Of a stretch of 39,871 nt of DNA, positions 18,604-22,029 are shown piece after piece (within the stretch, counting starts at the first letter, position 1; every line of letters starts with the position of its first letter). The notes beneath the pieces are model-generated. The model saw nothing but the letters and a program-made list of their open reading frames with translations. It searched no databases and was not told the DNA's origin. The stretch is from NCBI GenBank assembly GCA_025363205.1, contig JANYEI010000154.1:1-39871 (forward strand), in the 5' to 3' direction. A program made the translations under genes and the position numbers. The DNA comes from Frigoribacterium sp. (GTDB lineage Bacteria > Actinomycetota > Actinomycetes > Actinomycetales > Microbacteriaceae).

Positions 18604-18626
18604 AAGCCCCTCAGCGTATGGGGGTT
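18604..18626 (-). terminator. Possible terminator hairpin after the putative anti-sigma gene
   Basis: AACCCCC and GGGGCTT (minus strand) form a short GC stem with one mismatch, overlapping the stop codon of the gene ending at 18625. No U-tract follows, so it may be a weak terminator or attenuator ahead of the TPM gene. Confidence 0.3.
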
Positions 18627-19398
18627 ATCGCAGGGTCACCTTGGAGGTGGGCCCGGTCACGAGGTCGGTGCCCAGCACCGAGCCATCCGCATTCTGGCGG
18701 CTAACGTCGAGGGCGGCCGAGACCTGGTACTGCCCCGCGGCCACGTGCGGCAGGTCAGAACGGAAGCTGTCTGCGCTGTCGTCTTGGGTCGCGCAGGACA
18801 CCGGCCGAAACGACGCCTGGAAGGTCACGGATGCCCCGGGAGCCAGGTCGACGACCGCCGCCATCGCGATCATCGGGCCGTTGCTGTGCCACAGCACGAC
18901 CCCGTCCTTCGAGAGGGTGATCGCGGGGGTAGCGGCCGAGGTCCCGGTGATGCGCTCGCTGCCCGAGTTCGTGAGGGTCACCGTGCCCGTGATTCGATCG
19001 GCCGAGGCATCCGCTGTGGCAAAACTGGTGCTGAGAACGAGACCGGCTGCATTCGGGGCGACCTCGGCGAGCGCGCCGCCGCAGAGGTTGATCTTGGCGG
19101 CGGGTGCACGCGTGAGCCCACTGTCCGTTGGCGTGCTCCCGAGTGCGGAGCCTCCTCTGGTCTCGGGTGCATTCGCGGAAGACGCGGATCCCGCGGTGGT
19201 CGACGGCGTGAGACCGCGGATGCCGGTGAATCCGGCGACGCCGATGCCCGCAACCGCCAACGTCGTGGCGCTGCCCACCGCGACCCGTTGCGCGACGCGG
19301 CGGCGGGAACTGCGGCGGAGCACGAGCGAGATGTCGATCGGGCCAAGAGAGGGGCCGGTCTCACTGAACATCTTCTTCAGGTCAGATTCTGTGGACAT
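18625..19398 (-). CDS. Single-pass membrane protein, putative anti-sigma factor
   Basis: The 257-residue protein has a short cytoplasmic N-terminus (1-35, with DLKKMFSETG and an Arg-rich RRSSRRR stop), one membrane segment at about 37-56 and a long outside domain. That domain has two cysteines (one in LCGGAL, one in PVSCATQ) and beta-strand-rich sequence (DRITGTVTLTNSGSERITG) like an Ig-type or DUF4232-like fold. There is no zinc-binding ZAS motif. Its start lies 17 bases inside the sigma-factor gene, so the two are translationally coupled. That position is the reason to propose an anti-sigma role; sequence alone does not show it. Confidence 0.78.
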   Translation of the reverse strand: MSTESDLKKMFSETGPSLGPIDISLVLRRSSRRRVAQRVAVGSATTLAVAGIGVAGFTGIRGLTPSTTAGSASSANAPETRGGSALGSTPTDSGLTRAPAAKINLCGGALAEVAPNAAGLVLSTSFATADASADRITGTVTLTNSGSERITGTSAATPAITLSKDGVVLWHSNGPMIAMAAVVDLAPGASVTFQASFRPVSCATQDDSADSFRSDLPHVAAGQYQVSAALDVSRQNADGSVLGTDLVTGPTSKVTLR

Positions 19399-19975
19399 GG
19401 ATCGCTCCCTGCGTGTCGGTGGTGGTCGTGGCGGATGCGGATGTGCTGGGGTGCGGTTCGTCGGAGAGGGCGACCGCCATCTTGGCGAGGCCGTCGCTGA
19501 GGTAGCGCTTGACCGCGCCAGAGGAGATGCCGAGCCACTCGGCGATATCGTCGACCTTGAGGTCTTCGTAATAGCGAAGCACGATACAGGCGCGCTCCCG
19601 TTGGGTGAGTTTTGCGAGTTCTGCCGAAAGGTCGAGGCGGCTATCGGTGGCCGGGACCGACGACTCCTGGGTTTCTGTTACGGCGGTGAGATGCGCGATC
19701 CGACGCCAGCGGGTGGTGCGACGACCACCATCGAGCCAGGTATTGAGGATGGCGCGGCGCACGTAGGCCTCAGCGCTGGACACAGTGAACCCGTTGCGAA
19801 GCCGACCAAAGGTTTTCACCAGGGCATCCTGCACGAGGTCGGCCGCGTCATCCGTGCTGCCGCTGATCAGCCAGGCGTATCGCGTCAGCGCGTCGCCGCG
19901 CTCAACAACCAGCGTCGCAACGACTGATTGCCAACCCCTGTACGCAGTCTGTTCCTGTGGTGCTGCCGCGGCCAT
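19382..19975 (-). CDS. ECF sigma factor, SigE family
   Basis: This 197-residue protein directs RNA polymerase to a set of stress promoters. Region 2 (ALTRYAWLISGSTDDAADLVQDALVKTFGRL, about 30-65) and region 4 (LTQRERACIVLRYYEDLKVDDIAEWLGISSGAVKRYLSDGL, about 130-175) are both complete. The linker is short, as in actinobacterial SigE-family ECFs. The start ATG at 19975 has GAGGGGAACC upstream, but this sequence is buried in one arm of a large inverted repeat. The putative membrane-bound regulator overlaps its 3' end. pckG lies upstream on the same strand, with only 83 bases between. Confidence 0.93.
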   Translation of the reverse strand: MAAAAPQEQTAYRGWQSVVATLVVERGDALTRYAWLISGSTDDAADLVQDALVKTFGRLRNGFTVSSAEAYVRRAILNTWLDGGRRTTRWRRIAHLTAVTETQESSVPATDSRLDLSAELAKLTQRERACIVLRYYEDLKVDDIAEWLGISSGAVKRYLSDGLAKMAVALSDEPHPSTSASATTTTDTQGAIHVHRI

Positions 19976-19981
19976 CCGGTT

Positions 19982-20032
19982 CCCCTCGCGCGTCTTCTAG
20001 AAGAGTGTCTACCTTCTAAGACGCACGAGGGG
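19982..20032 (-). promoter_or_regulatory. Long hairpin between pckG and the sigma gene, covering the sigma RBS
   Basis: The arms at 19982-20002 and 20014-20032 are complementary over about 19 base pairs, with one mismatch (which a G-U pair could fill in RNA) and a two-base bulge. The loop is 11 bases. On the minus-strand transcript the second arm holds the GAGGGG of the sigma-factor ribosome binding site, seven bases before the ATG. The hairpin could terminate pckG transcription, block sigma translation until opened, or both. No U-tract follows, which argues against a simple intrinsic terminator. Confidence 0.7.
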
Positions 20033-20058
20033 GATTAAACGTTGGGTCGAGCCTCGCG

Positions 20059-21918
20059 TCAGTTTTCGATGGACAGTTTCAGCCGGCGGCGGATGTCGGT
20101 GAGTTGGGTGGTGAGACCCGCCGGTAGCCGATCGCCGAAGGTGGCGAAGAATTGCTCGGTCGCGTCAAGCTCGGCGAACCATGCTTCGGGGTCCACCTCG
20201 AAGAGCTGCTCGAGGTCCCGGCGGGTTACGTCGATCCCGTCGAGATTCAGTCCGCCGTCGACCGGCTTCCACCCGAGGGGGGTGTCGAGTGCAGGGGCAC
20301 GCTGATCGACCCGCTCGAGGATCCACTCGAGCACCCGCGAGTTCTCGGCAAAACCCGGCCAGAGGAAAGAGCCGTCGCTTCCCCTGCGAAACCAGTTGAC
20401 CTGGAAGATCTTTGGCGCCTTTGCTCCGAGCGTGTGACCGATCTTGAGCCAGTGGGACCAGTGATCCGCCATGTTGTATCCGCAAAATGGCATCATCGCG
20501 AAGGGGTCGCGACGCAGTTCGCCGACGGTGCCCTCTGCCGCGGCGGTGCGCTCGGACGAGACCGTGGCTCCCACGAACACCCCGTGCTCCCAGCTGCGAG
20601 CCTCGGTCACGAGGGGCACGTTTGTGGCGCGTCGACCACCGAAGATAATTGCGTCGATCACCACGCCCTGCGGGTCGTCCCAGTCGTCGGCGATCGCCGG
20701 GCACTGAGCCGCCGCGACGGTGAAGCGCGAGTTGGGGTGGGCGGCGGGGGATCCGGATGCCGCGCTCCAGGGATTGCCCTCCCAGTCCGTGAGATTATCG
20801 GGAGCTTTTTCGCTCAAGCCTTCCCACCACACGTCACCGTCGTCCCGCAGAGCCACGTTGGTAAAAATAGTGTTGCCCCAGAGCGTGTCGATGGCCGTCG
20901 CATTGGTGGTGCGTCCGGTTCCGGGTGCCACACCGAAGAATCCGGCCTCAGGATTGATCGCCCGCAGGCGCCCGTCGGGGCCGGGTTGCAGCCAGGCAAT
21001 GTCGTCGCCGATGGTCTCTACTCTCCACCCGGGGATCGACGGTTTGAGCATCGCGAGATTGGTCTTTCCGCAGGCCGACGGGAACGCCGCGACGATGTGG
21101 AACGACTTGCCGCGAGGATTCGTGACCTTGAGGATGAGCATGTGCTCGGCGAGCCAGCCCTCGTCGCGAGCGAGCACCGAAGCGATTCGCAACGCGAATG
21201 ACTTCTTTGCGAGAAGGGCGTTTCCGCCGTAGGCCGAACCGAATGACCAAATCTCTCGGGTTTCGGGAAAATGCGAGATGTATTTTGTCTCGTTGCAGGG
21301 CCACGGCACATCCTTCGCGCCGTCAAGCAGGGGTGCGCCGACGCTGTGGATCGCCGGCACCCACTCGGTGTTTGGACCGATGAGTGCGAGGGCATCCGCT
21401 CCCATTCGCGTCATGATGCGCGTTGAGACGACGACGTAGGGGGAGTCGGTGAGTTGCACCCCGAGCCTGGCCAGCGGGCTGCCGAGCGGTCCCATGGAGA
21501 AGGGCACGACATACATGGTGCGGCCACGCATGCTCCCGGAGAAGAGGCCGGTGAGCCTCGCTCGCATCTCTGTCGGTGCACGCCAATTGTTGGTTGGACC
21601 GGCGGCATCCTCGGATTCGGAGCAGATGAAGGTGCGCGCCTCCACCCGAGCGACATCACTCGGATCGCTTCGGGCGAGGAAGCTGTTGGGGCGGTGCTCG
21701 GCGTTGAGGCGCAGCAGAGTGCCGGAATCGACCATGAGTCGAGTCAGCCGGTCGTTCTCGGCGAGCGATCCGTCACACCAGACCACGGCGTCCGGGGTGG
21801 TGATCACGGCAATGGAGGCGACCCACGCCACGACGCGCGAATCGGCGTTCAGCGGGGGTGCGCCAGCGGCCTCCGGTGTGCCGAGGGCGGTGGCCGGTCT
21901 GGCTGATGTGATGGTCAT
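20059..21918 (-). CDS. pckG: Phosphoenolpyruvate carboxykinase (GTP)
   Basis: This cytoplasmic enzyme converts oxaloacetate and GTP to PEP, CO2 and GDP, and commits carbon to gluconeogenesis. It has 619 residues, the normal size. The nucleotide loop [13 protein letters not shown], the metal and substrate segments GDDIAWLQP and [12 protein letters not shown], and the [17 protein letters not shown] stretch identify the GTP-type family. An open frame reaches 21996, but [13 protein letters not shown] at 21918, with GGACGAG upstream, is the likely start. Its leader holds two 19-base tandem repeats. A RamB-like regulator is divergent from it, which suggests control by carbon source. Confidence 0.97.
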
Positions 21919-21927
21919 GTCTCGTCC

Positions 21928-21965
21928 GTTTCGTATGGAAGGGCTGGTTTCGTGTGGAGGGGCTG
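21928..21965. repeat. Two 19-bp tandem repeats in the pckG leader
   Basis: GTTTCGTATGGAAGGGCTG (21928-21946) is followed at once by GTTTCGTGTGGAGGGGCTG (21947-21965), with two differences. The repeat begins 10 bases upstream of the pckG start codon, so it lies in the leader or over the promoter. It may be a pair of protein sites or a slippage product. Confidence 0.7.
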
Positions 21966-22029
21966 GGTTGACGGGATGTGGCTGGGCAGAGGGCAAGTGG
22001 AGCCGCCTAAGCGCCAGCTTTCAGCTTTT

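Follow-up and report, generated by a model that had tools for sequence, protein, structure and literature searches.

The transposase genes of IS10 and IS50 are protected from outside transcription by a fold-back structure, which forms in read-through RNA and sequesters the start site. In phage T4, gene e and likewise soc, 49 and I-TevI have leader hairpins: the longer RNA initiated upstream hides the Shine-Dalgarno (SD) sequence in a helix (accessible part of PMC3014915). In autoregulated promoters of ECF sigma factors, which precede the sigma gene, the -35 element is AAC and the -10 element CGT (PMC8103513, available portion). SigE of Streptomyces is placed in group ECF39 (PMC8999054, in the part accessible).

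The window, which is the whole analysed stretch of 39,871 nucleotides from Frigoribacterium sp., has a hairpin between the gene for GTP-dependent PEP carboxykinase and the gene of an ECF sigma factor. With IS10 and IS50 it shares a predicted fold-back in read-through RNA that would sequester the start site, whereas these two are mobile elements and possess no sigma feedback loop. On paper the hairpin works like that of T4 gene e, with the SD hidden in a helix of a longer, upstream-initiated RNA as judged from folding predictions. Unlike gene e, as far as the accessible part of its description goes, the gene preceded by the hairpin here codes for an ECF sigma factor, stands on the chromosome and follows a metabolic gene; it has an ECF-type promoter, and the arm sequences differ between genera. 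Common to this locus and to the autoregulated ECF promoters are an AAC at -35 and a CGT at -10, placed ahead of the sigma gene; in contrast to what the available portion of PMC8103513 describes for those promoters, spacer and -10 element double here as the RNA arm that masks the SD. The best reading is that a fold-back hairpin like that of gene e guards a chromosomal sigma gene against read-through. Among the listed publications, judged by title or the start of the abstract, none concerned this sigma factor beside pckG.

All three genes of the locus lie on the minus strand. The carboxykinase gene pckG (20059..21996; PF00821/PF17297; NF003253, 959.8 bits) is the co-directional upstream neighbour of the sigma gene (19382..19975, ATG at 19975), whose product is SigE-like and has Sigma70_r2/r4 domains. 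Its best-scoring model is TIGR02983, with 116.1 bits, below the curated cutoff of 141.55 bits. Sigma proteins of the nearest named loci, among the best 80 matches kept, are 88% and 81% identical. The downstream gene (18625..19398) overlaps the 3' end of the sigma gene by 17 nt. It is matched by tblastn in 66 of 114 ortholog loci, several of which end before that place, and no Pfam or NCBIfam profile matches its product. This conserved gene is a candidate for an anti-sigma membrane protein.

Minus-strand RNA from 20032 to 19982 folds into a hairpin in which 22 pairs, interrupted by two bulges of 1 and 2 nt, enclose a loop of 4 nt. Its energy is -34.9 kcal/mol (z -7.29), a stability equalled by 0 of 200 dinucleotide shuffles; for the surrounding 99-nt stretch z is -3.45 and 1 of 200 shuffles was as good. 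The 5' arm occupies 20011..20032 and the loop 20007..20010, followed by the 3' arm (19982..20006), which belongs to the sigma leader and is closed by the SD GAGGGG (19982..19987), 6 nt before the ATG. The original prediction had thus correctly placed a hairpin at 19982-20032, had put GAGGGG into its second arm and had called the structure unlikely by chance. It had also described a stem of 19 bp with one mismatch, and here the longest uninterrupted run proved to be 14 pairs, including one U-G; the arms, said to fill the entire gap between pckG and the sigma gene, account with their loop for 51 of its 83 nt. A dispersed repeat was considered and rejected, since no second copy turned up when the own genome was searched at the DNA level; the ungapped repeat finder does not list it either.

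Of 114 unique ortholog loci, collected at E<=1e-30 from the same genus, from named genomes (best 80) and from a family sample, 80 have an ECF-type promoter, AACSTT-N14-CGTC, ahead of the sigma gene. The strict motif was defined as AACNTT and CGTC 12-16 nt apart, N being G or C in the printed rows, and the actual spacing is 14 nt in 79 of the 80 loci. All of the remaining 34 loci have a looser and less specific CAAC...CGT version. In the window, the predicted promoter consists of the -35 element AACGTT (20038..20043, minus strand), a 14-nt spacer (20037-20024) and the -10 element CGTC (20020..20023), which falls inside the 5' arm. A search of the window that tolerated one mismatch gave 4 matches against 4.61 expected, no enrichment, so the motif owes its support to conservation and not to rarity. 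An AAC -35 and a CGT -10 at fixed spacing upstream of a sigma gene are what autoregulated ECF promoters display, and the sigma gene is probably autoregulated. Transcription would start 7-8 nt past CGTC, in the region 20010..20013; position 20012, at the hairpin loop, was used in the calculations. With the -10 element in the 5' arm and transcription predicted to begin at the loop, RNA made from the gene's own promoter should contain almost nothing of this arm. A sigma transcript beginning inside the hairpin was what the original prediction had regarded as speaking against it, and such a start, near 20012, is what the promoter sequence predicts. Sister lineages (L039, L041-L044, L047, L049, L061, L068, L075, L096, L147 and others) have a GTG or ATG in frame where transcription is predicted to start, 9 nt beyond CGTC; their sigma mRNA may be leaderless and the protein extended at its N-terminus, for example by MTTTTFE.

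According to these models both arms of the hairpin are present only in RNA entering from upstream, where the SD is expected to be part of the 3' arm of a stable helix, as in the gene e type. The computed cost of opening SD and start codon drops from 22.8 kcal/mol for the long RNA to 7.2 kcal/mol if the RNA begins at 20012. The corresponding probabilities that the SD is unpaired are 0.002 and 0.27 at 37 C, and 0.002 and 0.05 at 25 C. In the long RNA the predicted value stays at 0.002-0.009 from 4 to 70 C; on this prediction the helix on the SD does not melt in the growth range as that of an RNA thermometer would, and the read-through form is therefore not expected to act as a thermosensor, contrary to one of the earlier suggestions. 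The short RNA retains a weak CUCUUC/GAGGGG pairing, and its SD, unpaired with probability 0.05 at 25 C, reaches 0.49 at 50 C. That the SD is largely paired in silico even here counts against a clean on/off picture, and the loosening with temperature is the point in favour of an RNA switch, thermosensor or attenuator, on the sigma mRNA itself. We regard such a switch as very improbable, given that the long hairpin is predicted to remain closed up to 70 C, that the promoter -10 is inside the 5' arm, and that an Rfam scan of the window yielded no family at its threshold. What survives of the switch originally proposed is the hiding of the SD in read-through RNA; its assignment to the gene's own mRNA does not fit a -10 element in the 5' arm. 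An SD that is found masked in a genome is not necessarily the sign of a riboswitch or thermosensor.

We propose, with a probability of roughly 0.7, that the hairpin is a fold-back insulation of the sigma gene against read-through from pckG. The computed basis of this proposal comprises the hairpin, the conserved promoter geometry and the SD masking, which in roughly one in two loci abutting pckG goes beyond the controls. In this view a promoter belonging to the ECF sigma gene itself, and probably autoregulated, would directly follow pckG. RNA running on from pckG would contain both arms, fold and bury the sigma SD, and such read-through would yield little sigma factor. RNA initiated at the sigma promoter would start at the loop, lack the 5' arm and be translatable. 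With read-through silenced and the own RNA translatable, the sigma feedback loop would therefore be shielded from metabolic transcription of pckG. A sigma gene under positive feedback is easily switched on by stray transcripts; if the proposal is true, it shows how such a gene stays silent beside an active metabolic gene, with one DNA stretch serving as both promoter and RNA lock.

Insulation predicts that the presence of the lock follows gene distance. Loci were called near, or abutting, if the pckG stop was less than 55 nt from the -35 element. The 34 loci without the strict motif were excluded from the main tests and run later with a relaxed motif, in which run four loci (L086, L089, L146, L155) had no start codon after the motif; removal of two loci with identical arms reduced the main set from 80 to 78. 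Each locus's own upstream segment was compared with segments of the 77 other loci (swap control). Undivided, the 46 pckG-linked and 32 other loci did not differ significantly (p 0.26); the split by distance is therefore post hoc, though mechanistically natural, and both the near/far and the leaderless divisions were set after the data had been seen. In the swap test, SD-led abutting loci had a median z of 2.5, and 12 of 22 reached p<=0.05, against 0 of 9 distant and 2 of 29 pckG-less loci that are likewise SD-led; abutting loci whose start codon coincides with the predicted transcription start gave 0 of 10. SD-led abutting loci differed from all other SD-led loci with p 1.4e-5 (Mann-Whitney). 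After collapse to clusters of 80% identity the comparison was 14 against 21 (p 5.8e-4), while clustering at 75% shrinks the abutting set to 2 clusters. Distance thresholds from 25 to 100 nt gave p from 0.007 to 9e-6, and keeping the leaderless-flagged loci in gave p 6.5e-4.

With dinucleotide shuffling as control, masking reached p<=0.05 in 15 of 22 abutting, 0 of 9 distant and 2 of 29 pckG-less loci that are SD-led, and in 1 of 10 leaderless-flagged loci abutting pckG; when an alignment decided on the start codon, the four classes gave 16/22, 0/9, 2/29 and 2/10. The window itself has z 3.9 and p 0.016 in this control. Summed by hand over the rows with shuffle p<=0.05 of the main, relaxed-motif and held-out sets, with the SD-chosen start, leaderless-flagged loci included and L185/L210 and L080/L166 each counted once, masking exceeded the shuffles in 19 of 38 abutting, 0 of 19 distant and 4 of 69 loci without pckG. 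Little masking was seen in several abutting loci (L116, L141, L160, L011). Where pckG is missing, co-directional and divergent neighbours, as told apart by crude gene calling, made no clear difference.

Pairing of the promoter segment with positions -20 to -5 from the start codon has a probability of 0.73-0.76 in SD-led abutting loci and of 0.52-0.55 after swapping; there is no excess in the coding region of these loci, and the excess at the SD persists without the clade of the window. Distant loci have a smaller excess, 0.05-0.12, around the start. The pairing of swapped segments would suit a complementarity that arises by chance or from G+C content, the spacer being rich in C and the SD in G, as would the borderline swap result of the window itself (z 1.9, p 0.051). 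Such an origin is nevertheless hardly credible: the window hairpin has z -7.3, and the excess over both controls is concentrated in the pckG-abutting loci. Duplex energies with z <= -3.4 were found in 9 of 47 pckG-linked and in 0 of 33 other loci.

Hairpins were also sorted by position, with score cut-offs chosen after the scores had been seen. A strong helix straddling the promoter is present in 11 of 32 near loci, in none of 14 far loci and in 1 of 32 without pckG, whereas a separate hairpin after pckG is present in 0 of 32 near and 11 of 14 far loci; the two kinds do not overlap between loci. This distribution would also be expected if the hairpin were mainly the 3' end of pckG mRNA, a terminator or exonuclease barrier that overlaps the sigma promoter because there is no room elsewhere, with SD masking as a by-product. 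In the window no U-run follows the G+C-rich stem on either strand and the terminator scan does not list the hairpin, so it is no canonical intrinsic terminator; the 11 separate hairpins lack one as well, with 1-3 T among the 9 nt that follow, and U-less 3' hairpins thus seem normal here. Against a pckG 3' end as the main role stand, besides the missing U-run of the window stem, the centring of the excess pairing on the SD and three loci (L014, L084, L090) whose 5' arm lies in the surroundings of -35, the 3' arm still covering the SD; of these, L014 passes the shuffle control (p 0.016), and L084 (0.066) and L090 (0.148) do not. We therefore consider this explanation unlikely, and retain from the earlier idea of a shared pckG terminator that the hairpin, besides insulating the sigma gene, may also terminate pckG transcripts. 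Long hairpins without a U-run directly after pckG and before -35 were seen in L053, L067, L093, L142, L143 and others; that of L093 adjoins the -35 element, and another, in L169, ends 5 nt before it.

In other lineages the masking helix is built from other sequences. In L175/L176, CCGCACCTCCGTCGTC pairs with its complement around a GGAGGTG SD in a 16-bp helix, and in one genus (L148, L154, L189-L191) a long helix joins the spacer and -10 element to the SD GAGGAGGGG. L014, L084 and L090, with their 5' arm near -35, belong here too, the last two without passing the shuffle control. The arms of these lineages have little in common beyond the promoter boxes; what they have in common is the pairing to the SD. 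A DNA palindrome acting as operator for a regulator that overlaps the promoter would agree with a dyad spanning the -10 element and the predicted start site, and symmetry alone cannot separate DNA from RNA hairpins. The dissimilarity of the arms beyond promoter elements, together with the bias of pairing to the SD and to pckG-abutting loci, makes such an operator very improbable. Covariation, proposed originally as a check, was found in part: among 8 relatives of the genus of the window, 2 of 12 consensus pairs have double, two-sided changes, and L011, within the same genus, breaks several pairs of the stem, so that covariation at the level of pairs is by itself modest. More tentatively, and with slightly less than even odds, we suggest that promoter-embedded fold-back hairpins are recurrent and independently evolved in Microbacteriaceae, at those loci where the space between a co-directional metabolic gene and the autoregulated ECF sigma gene directly behind it is too short for a separate 3' hairpin; spacer and -10 element would be co-opted as anti-SD arm, and translation would depend on which promoter made the RNA.

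A held-out set of 43 further loci contained 19 duplicates and 4 loci without the motif, 2 of them pckG-linked; the remaining 20 rows, in which L185 and L210 are the same locus, represent 19 distinct new testable loci. There were no SD-led abutting cases among them, so this class was not replicated. Three abutting leaderless-flagged loci, all of one genus already represented by L148/L154, gave swap p 0.013 each and shuffle p 0.016, 0.033 and 0.082. The single distant locus gave swap p 0.051 and shuffle p 0.18, and of 15 loci without pckG, 2 reached p<=0.05 in the shuffle and 0 in the swap control. These results are in line with masking beside pckG. An exemption of leaderless loci, by which a start codon at the predicted start would need no masking, had been suggested by the 0 of 10 in the swap test; it is weakened by L148 and by the held-out L189-L191, whose masking contradicts it.

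A wider regulon was sought with the strict motif. In the own genome only the sigma site was found, and the reversed control pattern also gave 1 site. Across 398 genomes of the family there were 57 sites against 2 for the reversed pattern; counted by hand from coordinates, 49 of the 57 are just upstream of a listed sigma match and 8 are not. Three sites away from a listed sigma match (G018:C1:3142036-3142071, G245:C2:320486-320521 and G031:C3:347258-347293) are possible regulon members or chance occurrences. In Lacisediminihabitans profunda (L008/L033), about 27 nt of the -10/start region are tandemly duplicated upstream of the sigma gene.
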